Source: Verrucomicrobia bacterium IMCC26134
GTDB taxonomy: Bacteria > Verrucomicrobiota > Verrucomicrobiia > Opitutales > Opitutaceae
Length of the DNA stretch: 64,000 nt
Reading direction: 5' to 3'
NCBI GenBank assembly: GCA_000972765.1
Contig: CP011265.1
Location: 62,001-126,000 of the forward strand
A program made the position numbers and the translations under genes. Shown in pieces: positions 15,734 through 60,091 of this stretch (its first letter is position 1; each line of letters starts with the position of its first letter). Below the pieces are notes generated by a model that was not told where the DNA came from, did no database searches, and worked only from the letters and a program-made list of their open reading frames with translations.

Positions 15734-16849
15734 CTAGATCTTGACCGGCCGGCCGGTGGCGTCGGATTCAAAGCAGGCGTCAAGCACGCGCTGGATTTCG
15801 GAACCCCGGGCGAAGTCGGGCTGGCCGGCAAGGCCGGTGCGGATCGCGGTGATGAAGCGGTGGTGGTTGTTTGGGGTGGGGCGGGCTTTGACGTCCTGCC
15901 ACTTGGCGGTGGCGGTATCGGCGCCGATGCAGGCCCGATAGGTGTCGGTGCCTGTATCGGAATCGAAACTGAAGGCGCCCTTGGTGCCATGAAGTTTGAG
16001 GGCAAGGCGGTTGGGGTGGCCGGTGGCCCAGCGCGTGGTGTGGATGGTGCCAAGGGCGCCGTTGGCGAATTCGACGTTGAGCACGGCGGAGTCGTTGGCA
16101 TCAAGGAGGTAGTCTCCGATGCGATTCTTCGGGGCCTTGGAAAAGGTTTTGAGCTGGCAGAAGACCTTCTTGATCGGGCCGGCGGGGAAGGTGGCGAAGT
16201 CAACGATGTGAACGCCGACGTCGCCGAGCACGCCCTTGGAACCGTGTTTGCTGGAAAGGCGCCAAAGCCAGCCCGGGCTGGTGCGCCAGTCTCCCCAGAT
16301 GGGGGCGGTGAGCCAGGTTTGAAGGTAACTTGCCTCGACGTGGCGGAGCTCGCCGATCTCTCCGGCCTGGACACGGGTGGCGATAGCCTGGAGCCCCGAC
16401 CAGTCCCGGTAGGAGAAGTTCACCATCGCAATGGTGCCGGCCTTGTGGGCGGCGGCGACCATGCGTTTGGTCTCGGCGTGGTTCAGGCCGAGGGGTTTTT
16501 CGCAAAGGACGTGCTTGCCGGCTTTCAGGGCCTGGATGGAGAGCGCGGCGTGGAAGGCATCGGGGGTGACGTTCGAGATCGCATCGCACGGGCACTCGCG
16601 GAGCAGTTTCGCGAAGTCGGTGTAGGCTCCGGCGCTAGGAATGCCCTGTTTGGCGCAGAAGGCCTCGACGCGGGCCCGGTCCACATCGCAACCGGCGACG
16701 AGTTGAACGCCTGGAATCTGCGCATAGAGCTCGGCGTGGCGGTTGGCCATGCCGCCGGTGCCCAGGATGGCTACGCGCACCGGTTTGGGGGCGGACTTGG
16801 CGGGCTTGGCTTTGGTGGATTTGGTGGATTTGGGCTTTGCGGAAGGCAT
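15734..16849 (-). CDS. Gfo/Idh/MocA family oxidoreductase
   Basis: 371 residues. A Lys/Pro/Ser-rich N-terminal tail (residues 1-23) precedes the NAD(P) Rossmann fold VRVAILGTGGMANRHAELY. The signature CEKPLGLNHAETKRMV gives the substrate-proximal Lys, and the C-terminal alpha/beta domain follows (GSKGVLGDVGVHIVDFATF). These enzymes oxidise or reduce sugars, inositols or amino sugars; the substrate is not readable. It begins 17 bases after the ThuA-like gene, so the two form an operon probably used for sugar breakdown. Confidence 0.9.
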   Translation of the reverse strand: MPSAKPKSTKSTKAKPAKSAPKPVRVAILGTGGMANRHAELYAQIPGVQLVAGCDVDRARVEAFCAKQGIPSAGAYTDFAKLLRECPCDAISNVTPDAFHAALSIQALKAGKHVLCEKPLGLNHAETKRMVAAAHKAGTIAMVNFSYRDWSGLQAIATRVQAGEIGELRHVEASYLQTWLTAPIWGDWRTSPGWLWRLSSKHGSKGVLGDVGVHIVDFATFPAGPIKKVFCQLKTFSKAPKNRIGDYLLDANDSAVLNVEFANGALGTIHTTRWATGHPNRLALKLHGTKGAFSFDSDTGTDTYRACIGADTATAKWQDVKARPTPNNHHRFITAIRTGLAGQPDFARGSEIQRVLDACFESDATGRPVKI

Positions 16850-16866
16850 GGCGGGGTCGGGCGGAC

Positions 16867-17646
16867 TTACTTATGGCCTGTATTGGAGCGCGCGTTTGCC
16901 TCGGGGTCGACCGGCAGGGGTTCGAGGGCTTTGGCGTTGAGGCAGGTGTCCTTGATGCGGAGACCGGAGAAGGCCCAGCGGACGCCGTTGGCGATCACGA
17001 GCTGGACCTGCGGGTGGTGGTAGGTCGGGTAGGTCTCGTGGCCGGGGCGGAAGTAGAAAATATTGCCATTTCCTCGCCGCCAGGTGGCGCCGGAGCGGAA
17101 GACCTCGCCGCCGGTGAACCAGGAAATGAAAATCAACTCGTCGGGAGTCGGGATGCCGAACGGTTCGCCATACATTTCCTCGGCGGGGATCTCGAAATAG
17201 GGGCCGATGCCCTGGACGATGGGGTGGGCGGGATTGACGACCCAGAGGCGCTCCTTGTCGGTGGCCTCGCGCCAGGTGAGCGAGCAGGTGTCGCCCATGA
17301 GGGCTTTGAAAATCTTGGAGTAGTGGCCGCTGTGGAGGACGATGAGCCCCATGCCCTCAAGCACGCGGGTGCGGACCTTGGCTACGATGGCATCGGAGAC
17401 CTCCCCGTGGGCCATGTGGCCCCACCAGGTGAGCACGTCGGTCTGGTCGAGAACCTCGTCGGTGAGGCCGTGGTCGGGCTCGTCCAGCGTGGCGGTTCGC
17501 ACGGCAAGGTCGGCGTGTTTGCCGAGGGCCTCGGCGATGGTCTGATGCATACCCTGCGGGTAGTGGGCGGCGACCTTGGGATTCTTTTTTTCGTGGCGGA
17601 ACTCGCTCCAGACGGTGACGCGGATGATGGGTTTGGCGGGGGGCAT
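16867..17646 (-). CDS. ThuA-like domain protein (trehalose/sugar utilisation)
   Basis: 259 residues of class I glutamine-amidotransferase-like ThuA fold: [13 protein letters not shown] at the start, [28 protein letters not shown], then [17 protein letters not shown] and a C-terminal [19 protein letters not shown]. ThuA proteins occur with sugar dehydrogenases and are linked to trehalose and related disaccharide catabolism (family knowledge). The Gfo/Idh/MocA gene follows at 17 bases. No signal peptide. Confidence 0.88.
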
Positions 17647-18434: not shown

Positions 18435-18983
18435 TTACGCAGCGGCCTGGTCCGCAGCTGCGGGAGAAGCGGGCTTGGGCGTGTTGCCGCGGATAAGGCC
18501 TTCGAGTCCGCGGCCGAGGCGGGGTTTGCCGGCGGCGGAGGGGATGGTATCGGAGTCGATGGCGCGGACCGAGGGGTTTTCGGCCACGGCGAGCAGGATC
18601 TCGGCGCGGCGTTTGTCGTCCAGGGCGGCGAGGGCTTCGGTGAGTTTCGTGGTGAAAGAGGGGAGGGCGGCGGCGAGGCGCGCATCAACGGCCGAAGCGA
18701 CGTGGGCCGCGAGCGCGTCCGGGTTGACCACGGGGGAAGGGGCGGGCACCGGGGCCGCGTTGAGAGGGGTGGCACGGGTGTGGCGTTGCACGTAAGCGAG
18801 CGCGAAGGGCAGGGCGGCGCAAGCCCCGGCGGCTGCGGTGCAGGCACCGATACAGATCAGCTCGAGGGCATCGAGTTTGGTCGCGGTTACTCTCACGATG
18901 TAGGCCGCGGCGGCGGCAAAAAGACCGGCGGCGATGAGAAAAGGGATTTTGGATACGGACGATAACGGTGCGGAGGAGTGCAT
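18435..18983 (-). CDS. Membrane protein with ParB-like LGRGL motif, unknown function
   Basis: 182 residues from the ATG on the minus strand at 18983; a 75-codon upstream extension is Pro-rich and overlaps uvrC, so it is not used. Two hydrophobic segments, IPFLIAAGLFAAAAAYIV and LICIGACTAAAGACAALPFA, are followed by a charged cytoplasmic-like region with a helical stretch (LAAHVASAVDARLAAALPS; KLTEALAALDDKRRAEILLA). Near the end is KPRLGRGLEGLIRG, strikingly like the N-terminal ParA-contact motif of chromosomal ParB. It begins 58 bases after uvrC. I do not know the family. Confidence 0.72.
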   Translation of the reverse strand: MHSSAPLSSVSKIPFLIAAGLFAAAAAYIVRVTATKLDALELICIGACTAAAGACAALPFALAYVQRHTRATPLNAAPVPAPSPVVNPDALAAHVASAVDARLAAALPSFTTKLTEALAALDDKRRAEILLAVAENPSVRAIDSDTIPSAAGKPRLGRGLEGLIRGNTPKPASPAAADQAAA

Positions 18984-19041
18984 GCGGCGGGGCGCGCGCG
19001 AGGCGGGCCGTAGGTGTTGGTGGGGCGGGCGGGACGCGGGC

Positions 19042-20568
19042 TCAATCTTGAAAACCGGCGGCGGGCGGGGCGGCGGATCCGGCGGAGGGTCCGTTTGACG
19101 CGGGGCCGTGCAGATAGGCGTGGAGCTCTGCGGCGAGTTTGCCGCCGAAGCCGGGGACGTCGGCGAGCTGGGCGGCGGTGGCCCGGCGGAGTTTGTCGAT
19201 GTCGCCAAAGCGTTCCAGCAGGGCGGCGCGGCGCACGGGGCCGAGCCCGGGGAAATCGTCGAGCACGCTCTCGCGGATCTTTTGGGAGCGGAGGTCGGCG
19301 TTGTAGGTGTTGGCGAAGCGGTGGGCCTCGTCGCGCAACCGCTGAAGCAGGTGGAGCGCGGGGGAGTTGAGCGGAAGATTCAGGGGGGAGCGCTCATCGG
19401 GGAAGATGATGGTCTCGTGTTTTTTCGCCAGACCGATGAGGGCGGGCGGGGTGAGGTCGAGGGCGAGGAAGGCCTTGAGCGCGGCCGCGATCTGGCCGCG
19501 TCCGCCGTCGATGACGACGAGGTCGGGGAAAGGCTTTTGCTCCTCGGCGCGGCGGCGGTAGCAGCGGCCGACCACCTCCTCCATGGCGCGGAAATCGTCG
19601 TTGCCGATGAAGCTCTTGATCTGGAAGCGGCGGTAGAGGTTTTTGTCCGGCCTGCCGTCGGCGAAGTGAACCATCGAGGCCACGCAATAGGTGCCGCTGA
19701 TGTGCGAGATGTCGAAACACTCCAGGGTGCGCGGCGCGGGATCGAGACCGAGGGCGGAGCCGAGCTGGGCGATGGCGTCGGAATCGGGTGTGGCGAAGGG
19801 CTGGTCGCGCTCGAACTTGCGCGTCTTGGCGAGGGTTTTTTCGAGTGCGAAGACGATGTCGCGCAGCTCGGCTGCTTGTTCGAAGTTTTGTTTTTCGGCG
19901 GCGGCGGCCATCTCGGCGCGCAGGGTTTCGAGCCACTCGCGGGACTTGCCCTCCAGGAAGGCGCAGGCCTGCTCGACCCGGGTGCGGTAGGCGTCGGGAG
20001 TAACGATGTTGTGGATACCGTAGAGCTCCTCACGCACGTCGTCGTAAAGCTGCCAGGTGCCGTCGGGGAGCAGTTGCGGGGTGGCGTCGCCAAGCAGGAT
20101 GCCGAACTGGCGGCGCATTTGAGCGAGGGTTTTACGCAGGAGGCCGGAGTGGGCGAAGGGGCCGAAGTAGCGGGACCGGTCCTCCTTGCGCAGGCGGGTG
20201 AGGCGGAAGCGGGGGAGGGTCTCGGCGAGGTCCACGCGCACAAGGAGGAAGCGTTTGTCGTCGATGAAGTCGGTGTTGTATTTGGGTTTCCACTGCTTGA
20301 TCAGCTTGCCCTCGAGCAGGAGAGCTTCGGGTTCCGACTTCACTTCGATGGTGTCGAAGTCGTGGATGAGGCTGATAAGCGCGCGGATTTTCGGGTGCAC
20401 CGTCATGGCGCGCGAGGGGGTGAAGTAAGAGGATACGCGCTTTTTCAGGGCCTTGGCCTTGCCCACGTAAAGAATGCGACCCAGACGGTCTTTCATCAGG
20501 TAGACGCCCGGTTTGTCGGGAAGACGACGGACCTTTTCTTTCAGGTTTATGGGTTCGGACGCTGGCAT
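19042..20568 (-). CDS. uvrC: Excinuclease ABC subunit C
   Basis: 508 residues, about 100 shorter than E. coli UvrC, but all modules are visible. GIY-YIG nuclease at about 15-95 (DKPGVYLMKDRLGRILYVG), UVR helix pair near 200 (MAAAAEKQNFEQAAELRDIV), RNase H-like 5' nuclease at about 265-430 (ECFDISHISGTYCVASMVHF; PDLVVIDGGRGQ), and the two HhH motifs at the end (FPGLGPVRRAALLERFG; VPGFGGKLAAELHAYL). It makes both cuts around UvrB-bound lesions. The shortness comes from compact linkers rather than loss of a domain. It is divergent from cinA by 38 bases. Confidence 0.94.
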   Translation of the reverse strand: MPASEPINLKEKVRRLPDKPGVYLMKDRLGRILYVGKAKALKKRVSSYFTPSRAMTVHPKIRALISLIHDFDTIEVKSEPEALLLEGKLIKQWKPKYNTDFIDDKRFLLVRVDLAETLPRFRLTRLRKEDRSRYFGPFAHSGLLRKTLAQMRRQFGILLGDATPQLLPDGTWQLYDDVREELYGIHNIVTPDAYRTRVEQACAFLEGKSREWLETLRAEMAAAAEKQNFEQAAELRDIVFALEKTLAKTRKFERDQPFATPDSDAIAQLGSALGLDPAPRTLECFDISHISGTYCVASMVHFADGRPDKNLYRRFQIKSFIGNDDFRAMEEVVGRCYRRRAEEQKPFPDLVVIDGGRGQIAAALKAFLALDLTPPALIGLAKKHETIIFPDERSPLNLPLNSPALHLLQRLRDEAHRFANTYNADLRSQKIRESVLDDFPGLGPVRRAALLERFGDIDKLRRATAAQLADVPGFGGKLAAELHAYLHGPASNGPSAGSAAPPAAGFQD

Positions 20569-57270: not shown

Positions 57271-57347
57271 GGACGCCTAGCTCAGTTGGTTAGAGCACAT
57301 CCTTCACACGGATGGGGTCACAGGTTCGAGTCCTGTGGCGTCCACCA
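57271..57347 (+). tRNA. tRNA-Val (anticodon CAC)
   Basis: Cloverleaf read by eye: acceptor GGACGCC / GGCGTCC (57271-57277, 57337-57343), D arm GCTC...GAGC, anticodon stem CATCC/GGATG with loop TTCACAC giving anticodon CAC (57305-57307), T arm ACAGG-TTCGAGT-CCTGT, and encoded ACCA at 57344-57347. It decodes GTG. The accessory-looking region starts right after it. Confidence 0.97.
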
Positions 57348-57752
57348 TCTTGCATAGCAAGTGGTTATGGTTTCGGAATTGCTCAGTGGCAACGCAAAGT
57401 GGCAACATATTCGCCCTTGTGTTAGGTTGTTCGGCCATAGGTTTGGGCGGCCGGCGGCGGAGAGGTCGGCGACCCAATCGGACGGCTCGGACAGGTTCGG
57501 CTCGCTGTTCATCGTCATCGTCGCACCGAGCAAAAGCGCGTCACCGTGCGAGGTGCCGCGATCACCCGCGAACGTTGCGAGGGCAGACTCTTGGGTGGGG
57601 GAGGCGTTGACTGTGATTTGCTGCTATCGAGCACCCAACGTGGCCGCGTTTCTATTGGCTTGGGTTTCGTTCATGTGTGAGGATGGCCTTTCTCCGTAGT
57701 GCGCTAACCAATACAGGAAAATAATCCGGATTTCGCTCAAGAGACGAGGACT
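57348..57752. other. Non-coding gap after tRNA-Val
   Basis: 405 bases with no convincing gene. A minus-strand frame crossing the tRNA (57318-57533) ends in WWTPQDSNL, which is simply antisense tRNA. AGTGGCAAC occurs twice within 25 bases near 57384-57405. I found no copy of the tRNA 3' end further right that would mark an attachment site. Confidence 0.5.
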
Positions 57753-58155: not shown

Positions 58156-58473
58156 ATGAAACACACATCAACAAAGCCCTTGCCTGTGTCTGAGAGCGGG
58201 ATGGGCAATCCCATTTCGCCATCCGGCGGCGGGCTCATCGAATGGGTAGAAAGCATGTGGGAGGATTTGACGCCTTTGCTGGCCAAGGCGGGTTTGCCAT
58301 CCGACCTCGATGCCCTTGCGGCCAAAAAATTGGCCAAAAAATCACCGGTAGTGCCACCGGCGCCTCACCGGCCTGTTACCGGCTCGTCACCGGCGGAACA
58401 GTGGCGGAACACTGGTGGAACACTGGCGCGCTGCCGGCTCGCCACTGGCGGAATTGTGGCGAAAAACTGGTGA
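58156..58473 (+). CDS. Small hypothetical protein overlapping the 11-bp array
   Basis: 105 residues from the ATG at 58156, with GGAA about 9 bases upstream. The first 60 residues (SPSGGGLIEWVESMWEDLTP; LLAKAGLPSDLDALAAKKLA) look like genuine protein; the rest (RPVTGSSPAEQWRNTGG and on) is just translation of the tandem array. No family recognised. It may be a real small gene whose 3' end has been overrun by repeat growth. Confidence 0.35.
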   Translation: MKHTSTKPLPVSESGMGNPISPSGGGLIEWVESMWEDLTPLLAKAGLPSDLDALAAKKLAKKSPVVPPAPHRPVTGSSPAEQWRNTGGTLARCRLATGGIVAKNW

Positions 58474-58498
58474 AAAACCGGCGCGCTACCGGCTCGCC
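58344..58498. repeat. 11-bp tandem repeat array, about 14-15 units
   Basis: ACCGG or a variant (ACTGG, AGTGG, GCCGG, TGTGG) starts at 58344, 58356, 58367, 58378, 58389, 58400, 58411, 58422, 58433, 58444, 58455, 58466, 58477 and 58488. After the first step of 12, every step is exactly 11 bases. The unit is roughly A-C-Y-G-G-C-plus five variable bases, often GGAAC. Since 11 is not a multiple of 3, the array cannot encode a simple peptide repeat in one frame with an 11-bp period. Confidence 0.92.
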
Positions 58499-58504
58499 CC
58501 CACC

Positions 58505-58789
58505 GTGACATCGGACAATACACCGGCAGACGCTGCCCATGAGGCCGGTATGGCTGTCCGCTTTCTAGTCGGTCTCTTGCAGGCGAACACCGACCGGGAT
58601 AGGGATGACGTTGCTCGCTTAGCCTTCACCGCAGGCATGCGACTAGCAGAGCTCAAGGCCATCCTGAACTCCCAACCTCCGATCAAAGCGAAGCCAAGAA
58701 GTCCGTTCTTTCCGTTGGCTAAGACCGCTTGGGAAAACTGCCTCGCGAAGAAAAAACCGGCGGCCGCGCCCCTCAAGACAAAGAGCTAA
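58505..58789 (+). CDS. Small hypothetical protein in the island
   Basis: 94 residues from a GTG at 58505, right after the 11-bp array. The sequence has ordinary protein character: HEAGMAVRFLVGLLQANTDR, DDVARLAFTAGMRLAELKAI, and a Lys/Pro-rich tail. Family not recognised. Another frame (58729-58938, with IAEMIALGMNEDGDVFGLAS) overlaps its end and also looks partly protein-like, so a frameshift in an older, longer gene is possible. Confidence 0.35.
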   Translation: MTSDNTPADAAHEAGMAVRFLVGLLQANTDRDRDDVARLAFTAGMRLAELKAILNSQPPIKAKPRSPFFPLAKTAWENCLAKKKPAAAPLKTKS

Positions 58790-59000
58790 TAGCGGAGATG
58801 ATTGCCTTGGGGATGAACGAAGATGGCGACGTCTTTGGATTGGCCTCAGGGAAAAATCGCACCCACCGGTTAAAAGCACGCTCCCTGCTCAATAATTTCA
58901 CGAGGTGGCGGAAATTATTCACGAATAGGCCCGAGTAGTGAATCGGGGCTGTTTACGTCATGGGGATTGAGGGCGTAGTCGTTTGGAAACTACAAACCTC

Positions 59001-59303
59001 ATGAATCACCCTTCACTTGGACAACGCTCCGCCGCCTTAAACGAATCCTCCAAAGCGCATCTGCCCCTGTGCGCCCCGCTCAAGCCCAGGGGTGGAGATC
59101 CCTATTTCGGGCTTTCCCGCAGCTATTGGTATAACTTGGAGCGCAAAGGATACATCGTCCTAAAGCGGCTGCGGATGCATGGGAACCGAAAGGGACGCGT
59201 GCTGCTATCCATGGAAGACGCCGAAAAGGCCATCGAGTTGCTGAGCCAAGATTCTAAAGTCGTTAAACTTGGGGGATGCCTCGGAACTTCTAATGATCAC
59301 TAG
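59001..59303 (+). CDS. Excisionase-like helix-turn-helix protein
   Basis: 100 residues from the ATG at 59001. The middle has DPYFGLSRSYWYNLERKGYI then VLKRLRMHGNRKGRVLLSME and DAEKAIELL, the AlpA/excisionase-type winged HTH layout in which a short HTH is followed by an Arg-rich wing. Such proteins usually accompany integrases on genomic islands (family knowledge). No integrase is seen in the window. Its stop is directly followed by an open stretch in the same frame. Confidence 0.6.
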   Translation: MNHPSLGQRSAALNESSKAHLPLCAPLKPRGGDPYFGLSRSYWYNLERKGYIVLKRLRMHGNRKGRVLLSMEDAEKAIELLSQDSKVVKLGGCLGTSNDH

Positions 59304-59636: not shown

Positions 59637-59965
59637 TCAACAAATCTCGGCGTGACCCTTTTGATCGACCTGCTGGAGATTGATACGGCTCGCGACACCG
59701 AGGAAGAAACCGTCGCCCTGGCCCGCCTTGTCGCCGGCGAGCGGGCGGCGTTGGTCACTTCGGCTTACCATATGCCACGCGCGATGCGACTGGCGAAGCA
59801 CGCAGGCCTGGCGGCGGTGCCTGCCCCTCGGATTACTCGGACCGCGATGGGCAAAATACATTCGAGATGAGATTCTTCGTTTGGGATACGGAGTCCCTCG
59901 CGAACAGCACCCGCGCTTGGTGCGAATACATTGGCCTCACCTGGAGTAGCCTGCGGGGCAAATGA
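59637..59965 (+). pseudogene. Frameshifted, truncated DUF218 (YdcF/ElyC-type) gene
   Basis: Frame one gives DTARDTEEETVALARL, then RAALVTSAYHMPRAMRLAKH and AGLAAVPAP, the C-terminal half of a DUF218 protein. At about 59830 one base is missing from the codon after CCT GCC; moving by one frame restores SDYSDRDGQ and then TRAWCEYIGLTWSSLRGK followed by TGA, which is the expected C-terminal end. The N-terminal half is absent (an in-frame TAA is at 59634). It is a pseudogene with a single -1 frameshift. Confidence 0.72.
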
Positions 59966-60030
59966 GGTTCCTGAATCCAATTCGCGGAGAATCTAAACGG
60001 GGCAAAATTCAAGGAGTTGGGGCGTGACCC

Positions 60031-60091
60031 CATTTGGCCTGCCAGCCCATCTGGCCTGCCGCACCCCACTTGGCCTGCCCATTTGGTCTCC
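60031..60091. repeat. Four direct copies of a 13-bp GC-rich motif
   Basis: CATTTGGCCTGCC (60031), CATCTGGCCTGCC (60048), CACTTGGCCTGCC (60067) and a decayed CATTTGGTCTCC (60080). Starts are 17, 19 and 13 bases apart. The array lies between the DUF218 remnant and the 3' end of the caspase-like protein gene. Confidence 0.7.

Follow-up and report, generated by a model that had tools for sequence, protein, structure and literature searches.

The 11-bp tandem array in the window (the whole analysed stretch of 64,000 nt, contig CP011265.1, 62,001-126,000, whose positions are used for array coordinates) is a real, head-to-tail repeat far above chance. It is probably a minisatellite that arose by tandem duplication in a decaying accessory gene, here called X, and then underwent neutral drift. 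A striking repeat would thereby be explained as a local duplication in a decaying gene, and a family of elements consisting of an integrase, a variable X and an Xis-like gene becomes definable. The interpretation offered in a preliminary description of this DNA is partly supported: the feature is real, its explanation is mostly ordinary, and one functional rival is live. The features concerned are the following, in window positions.

57318..57348, + strand: attL core, formed by the 3′ end of tRNA-Val; its 31 bp recur as an exact direct repeat at the far island end (from the repeat match)
58156..58341, + strand: presumed 5′ part of gene X, frame 1, 62 codons from the ATG to the array (from position, length and composition)
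58320..58342, + strand: 12-bp tandem duplication GGCCAAAAAATT, 1.9 copies, abutting the array (from Tandem Repeats Finder and the sequence)
58343..58498, + strand: 11-bp array, 14 cores with a 55-bp higher-order repeat (from the sequence and Tandem Repeats Finder)
58481..58789, + strand: middle part of gene X, frame 2, beginning inside the last array units (from homology to the X of a relative)
58762..58938, + strand: 3′ part of gene X, frame 1 (from homology to the X of the same relative)
58983..59303, + strand: predicted Xis-like winged-helix gene, 106 aa, TTG start with an ATG at 59001 (from the structure model and kinship)

The 11-bp array

The sequence bears out the fourteen cores at 11-base steps, only the first step being irregular, that were originally described. 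The cores (n=14) stand at 58343 and 58355 and then at a spacing of 11 bp up to 58487, so that, as read from the sequence, one step of 12 bp is followed by twelve of 11 bp. All 13 regular units keep GG; 11 of them read C[C/T]GG and two GTGG. Tandem Repeats Finder, proposed earlier as a check, detected both 11-bp and 55-bp rows in the window; its best row is a 55-bp repeat (58377-58498, 2.2 copies, score 174) whose unit amounts to five 11-mers. Within the array the self-match reaches 0.62 for a lag of 11 and 0.71 for one of 55, compared with 0.16-0.33 at the lags from 2 to 59 that are not multiples of 11. The duplication that abuts the array on the left has a length that is a codon multiple. Two of the three forward reading frames are open nearly throughout the array, frame 2 having no stop past 58351 and frame 0 none inside it, and the third is open to 58470.

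The lag-11 score of the array is 91 (over 143 positions), compared with a maximum of 64 (mean 58.7) in 100 simulated 64-kb sequences (first-order Markov) and of 60 in 20 stretches sampled from this genome (400 kb in all, about 10% of it), none of which held an equal of the array. A DNA search placed the array sequence at a single site in the 4.0-Mb, one-contig genome. With up to 2 mismatches allowed, the unit pattern was found in this genome only, that is, in one of 150 family genomes and one of 288 phylum genomes; the exact pattern was absent from viral contigs and a DNA search of plasmids did not recover the repeat, although pattern searches of this kind would miss arrays built of another unit. 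A DNA match with the whole X region in 57 relatives likewise returned this genome alone. Folding of the array region was weak for both RNA and DNA (z -1.98 and -2.16, respectively), an Rfam search returned only the tRNA, and promoter and terminator scans were near chance level.

The array is a degenerate minisatellite, and it is old or unconstrained. Adjoining units share a mean identity of 66%, and the two 55-bp copies are mismatched at 10 of their 55 positions. At lags 11, 22, 33, 44 and 55, exact matches extend over 10 bp at most. Given that the units are only 66% alike, the array gives no sign of present copy-number change. Parsimony changes fitted an even distribution over the array columns (p=0.76), and conservation was not significantly raised in any six-column core (best p=0.58), both being weak tests with 13 units. 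The array had been described as in phase with the DNA helix. Its spacing is indeed about one turn, but at 10.5 bp per turn the helical face rotates by 17 degrees with every 11-bp unit, which amounts to about 223 degrees across the array (13 steps of 11 bp).

Gene X and its array-free relative

In the window X consists of three pieces in two frames. These were recognized by comparison with G258, an uncultured Verrucomicrobia MAG (CAIVDS010000034.1) that matches the ORF to the right of the array at E 1e-20. G258 carries, in this order, an integrase (382 aa, matching PF00589), an unbroken X (211 aa), whose start overlaps the integrase stop, and an Xis-like gene (124 aa). The middle part of X in the window matches residues 64-163 of the relative's X at 52-55% identity, to near 58786, and the 3′ part matches residues 157-211 at 44%. 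Residue 64 corresponds to window position 58481, where the alignment starts, within the last array units. The G258 locus has no 11-bp array; the sole row that Tandem Repeats Finder reports there is a 12-bp pair immediately ahead of the integrase.

To the left of the array, exactly 62 codons lead from the ATG at 58156 to its start, versus about 63 in the relative's X. Since this stretch is only weakly similar to residues 1-66 of the relative's X (shuffle p=0.18 local, 0.04 global), the start of X rests on position, length and composition, GC by codon position pointing to frame 1 for the 5′ part, frame 2 for the middle and frame 1 again for the 3′ part. The flanking X alignment, the 62 codons and the composition together suggest that the 5′ part belongs to X and that the array is an expansion of ~139 bp at codon ~63 of that gene. 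Differences between the window and G258 fall mostly at third codon positions (by codon position, 28/19/52 over 77 codons of the middle part and 20/16/30 over 48 codons of the 3′ part), which argues that X was once under protein selection. Between the middle and 3′ parts lies a -1 frame change, one base being missing relative to G258 near 58750. A run of six A (58751-58756) sits at this point, where base loss and slippage are indistinguishable, and reading of the sequence revealed no standard in-frame slippery site. Because the array shifts the frame and a second frame change follows downstream, X looks to be decaying, and its function has presumably been lost.

We propose that the array was generated at codon ~63 of X by successive tandem duplications, first in 11-bp steps and then in a ~55-bp step, through either slippage or unequal exchange. 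Its net length of about 139 bp (1 mod 3) would have put the remainder of X out of frame. After this growth the array, presumably unselected, would have drifted until its units were a third different and long exact copies were gone. The preliminary description had reasoned that a period that is not a codon multiple makes selection on a peptide unlikely; as the array appears to have grown inside a gene, that argument points the wrong way: comparison with the one relative puts the array at codon ~63 of X, in what used to be coding DNA, where it shifts the frame. Three observations weigh against neutral expansion: the array is open in frames 2 and 0, as would also be expected of a translated repeat, GG is kept in 13 of 13 regular units, and tandem repeats whose period is not a multiple of three (non-3n repeats) are commoner near modules of this kind.

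When the ORF to the right of the array served as protein query against 252 family genomes, six gave matches at E <= 0.01, and those in the genome itself and in G258 were the only convincing ones; the other four were dropped (E 0.002-0.009 over 35-51 residues). G273, which matched at E 5e-4 and is one of two matching among 372 order genomes, was also dropped, its ORFs being unlike X by eye. Two X peptide patterns searched over 84,980 species genomes hit one locus, again G258. Viral scans for X yielded no relative, and a protein search of plasmids no homologue. Given this single convincing homologue, the array-free state may not be ancestral. A structure model of X alone had a mean pLDDT of 42.9 and was left unused. 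Among the tblastn matches listed for an integrase relic beside the array, none was better than E = 1.

The island, the Xis-like gene and the element family

The surroundings of the array are a 27.6-kb tRNA-Val-borne integrative island with its own integrase, and the mobile island postulated earlier is thus confirmed by 31-bp direct repeats and an integrase. The far end lies beyond the window, at genome C1:146945-146975, 27,627 bp from the tRNA-Val copy; a direct repeat of the tRNA 3′ end is found at both ends, and a tyrosine recombinase is encoded inside. This island integrase is an unbroken ORF of 404 aa (C1:146836-145622) that begins about 109 bp inside the far end and is 48% identical to the G258 integrase. 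The integrase (C1:145622-146836) and the X-xis genes (window 58156-59303) lie far apart, one at each end of the island and on different strands, while in the relative they are adjacent and co-directional; inversion or a composite origin is a possible cause of the split.

The island also carries other cargo. In locus L066, two near-identical transposase-like ORFs of 278 aa, which we take to be IS3-type, lie inverted inside the island (16506-17342 and 18466-19302). A 3019-aa ORF composed of many similar repeats (L066 6235-15294) lies beside a 1099-aa ORF with a different repeat type, and from their sequences both are perhaps surface proteins carried by the island. The Xis-like gene is followed, before the next large ORF, by a DUF218 fragment (PF02698, E 2e-12; window 59652-59870), and a second non-3n tandem repeat of the island, of 17-19 bp and about 3 copies, lies at window 60027-60081.

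For the product of the downstream gene, originally taken for an excisionase-like HTH gene, the model indeed predicts a winged helix of Xis/MerR type (mean pLDDT 73.5, with residues 31-90 at about 82-94). VIA-align gave mycobacteriophage Pukovnik Xis as the top structural match (Z 5.8, rmsd 2.2, 53 residues), with SoxR (5.6), a Klebsiella putative excisionase (5.5), an E. coli island protein and GlnR tied within 1 Z; the best Z being under 6, the fold call is modest. Foldseek detected no match to the model at E <= 0.001, a sequence search of solved structures gave one match (E 0.65), and PHROGs and NCBIfam yielded no family for the protein and Pfam none that was credible. We use the name Xis-like on account of the winged-helix structural match and the position after the integrase in relatives. 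The product of 58983-59303 is predicted to be Xis/MerR-like by fold and by that place, and its function is likewise a prediction. It is 56% identical to its G258 counterpart and belongs to a family present in 21 of 252 family genomes; in 23 fetched loci of that family there was no 11-bp array besides the window's own.

The integrase family is wider, occurring at E <= 1e-40 in 58 of 252 family genomes. We fetched 30 integrase loci, some of which end early at contig ends; by eye, nine of the 30 have an Xis-like ORF within about 1.5 kb past the integrase, and eight of these nine have an ORF of 197-364 aa between the two. The proteins at the X position are hardly alike (best E 4e-4 among 12 examined of the 30). 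Judging from these sequences, the integrative elements of this family would have, between integrase and Xis-like gene, a fast-evolving accessory gene, X.

Non-3n tandem repeats numbered two in the 400-kb own-genome sample (scores 52 and 54), three in the 30 integrase loci (117.7 kb; scores 183, 87 and 69) and two in the island itself (scores 174 and 73). Those of the other loci are a 52-bp repeat (L071 665-781) and a 31-bp repeat with a 21-bp sub-period (L082 589-649), each between the X-position gene and xis, and a 22-bp repeat about 0.3 kb after xis (L084 4019-4081); their periods are near multiples of the helix turn. These elements may tend to carry helix-spaced repeats close to xis; since the background is a single genome, we treat the excess as a lead. 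It hints at some common cause beyond neutral drift.

Alternative readings and comparison with known systems

The strongest rival to neutral expansion is an operator for the island's excisionase-type protein: the Xis-like protein would bind head to tail, one per 11-bp unit, as an RDF filament that represses the X-xis transcript or shapes the DNA for excision. We consider this rather unlikely. Direct repeats spaced by 10-11 bp, about one helix turn, have a precedent in phage 186 Apl, for which the available portion of the source describes five sites at att and seven between promoters pR and pL (PMC7498355), and the 11-bp spacing fits this arrangement. The winged-helix model with Pukovnik Xis (Z 5.8) ahead of SoxR and others, the GG of 13 of 13 regular units and the non-3n tandem repeats near xis in three of 30 other loci of the family point the same way. 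To that extent the binding protein suggested in the preliminary description gains from the RDF precedent and the Xis/MerR-like model; it loses somewhat from a search for sites. A unit-matrix scan for unit-like tandem pairs at attL (482 bp), at the integrase/attR end (390 bp) and in the X-xis gap gave a best score of 8.4, against 16.8-23.4 in the array, in stretches of about 60-480 bp and with degenerate sites missed; elsewhere in the island the best pair reached 12.2, below every 20-kb background maximum (12.4-20.8). The scan is not decisive, as weak sites are missed and as for RdfS itself the accessible text of its report describes binding to att and to its own promoter, each molecule covering about 10 bp, but no consensus motif (PMC11963761). 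Moreover, the array is 995 bp from the att core and 485 bp from the xis start, lies inside the former coding sequence of X, drifts in helical phase by the rotation given above and shows no excess conservation of its cores (a weak test), and neither G258, despite its 56%-identical Xis-like protein, nor the other Xis-like loci fetched have an 11-bp array. A bolder version, in which the 14 one-turn sites nucleate an excisionase-type filament, the body of X has been taken over and excision is controlled through a large operator, we judge improbable. If binding were nonetheless the true reading, the array would be a natural test bed for RDF filament nucleation on long arrays, and with a filament the operator would be far larger than the five to seven sites of phage 186 Apl.

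Three further readings start from the reading frames or from the island's past. Gain or loss of 11-bp units could shift the frame of X and so act as a phase-variable on/off switch, since 11 is not a multiple of 3 and the array lies within X; frame arithmetic shows that one unit more or two fewer would align the 5′ and middle parts. The repeats are, however, too diverged to slip readily (10 bp being the longest exact run at five lags), and even with the array in frame the tail of X would stay cut off from its middle by the frame change near 58750; we regard such a switch as unlikely. That the array is translated as an 11-residue-repeat linker within X, a single chain being made by frameshifting at the array and at the A-run, is very improbable. 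An 11-bp unit does encode the same 11-residue repeat in every frame, and the open forward frames noted above would permit it; but the ribosome would have to shift frame twice, once in each direction, the second site has no standard slippery heptamer in the right frame, and the relative encodes X without frame changes. An iteron-like replication origin from a former plasmid stage of the island is hardly credible: an idealised array peptide weakly matches a stretch 92 bp before the replication initiation gene of a Thiothrix plasmid, but only at E = 0.3, a comparison of six neighbouring ORFs with Pfam revealed no replication initiator, and the array is located inside X. The matched stretch of that plasmid, pThCT3_1, is unannotated, precedes the replication initiation gene (L043 1501-1629) and perhaps consists of iterons.

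Set beside the arrays of phage 186 Apl, as far as the available portion of that source describes them (PMC7498355), the window array is alike in its direct repeats one turn apart and in the nearby gene for a predicted Xis/MerR-like winged helix. It differs in having 14 units rather than five or seven, in being intragenic and about 1 kb from att, and in that the stretches scanned at attL, attR and the integrase start yielded no matching sites. With phase-variable contingency loci it shares an intragenic non-3n unit, but its copies are much too diverged and a second frame change persists. Degenerate bacterial VNTRs in coding sequence resemble it in their short direct units, higher-order repeat, adjacent second duplication and single occurrence per genome, and differ in that the window's units are 66% alike. 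The element in G258, finally, is akin in its integrase (48% identical), the middle part of X (52-55%) and the Xis-like protein (56%), whereas in the window's island the integrase lies 25 kb off on the opposite strand and X is broken and carries the array.
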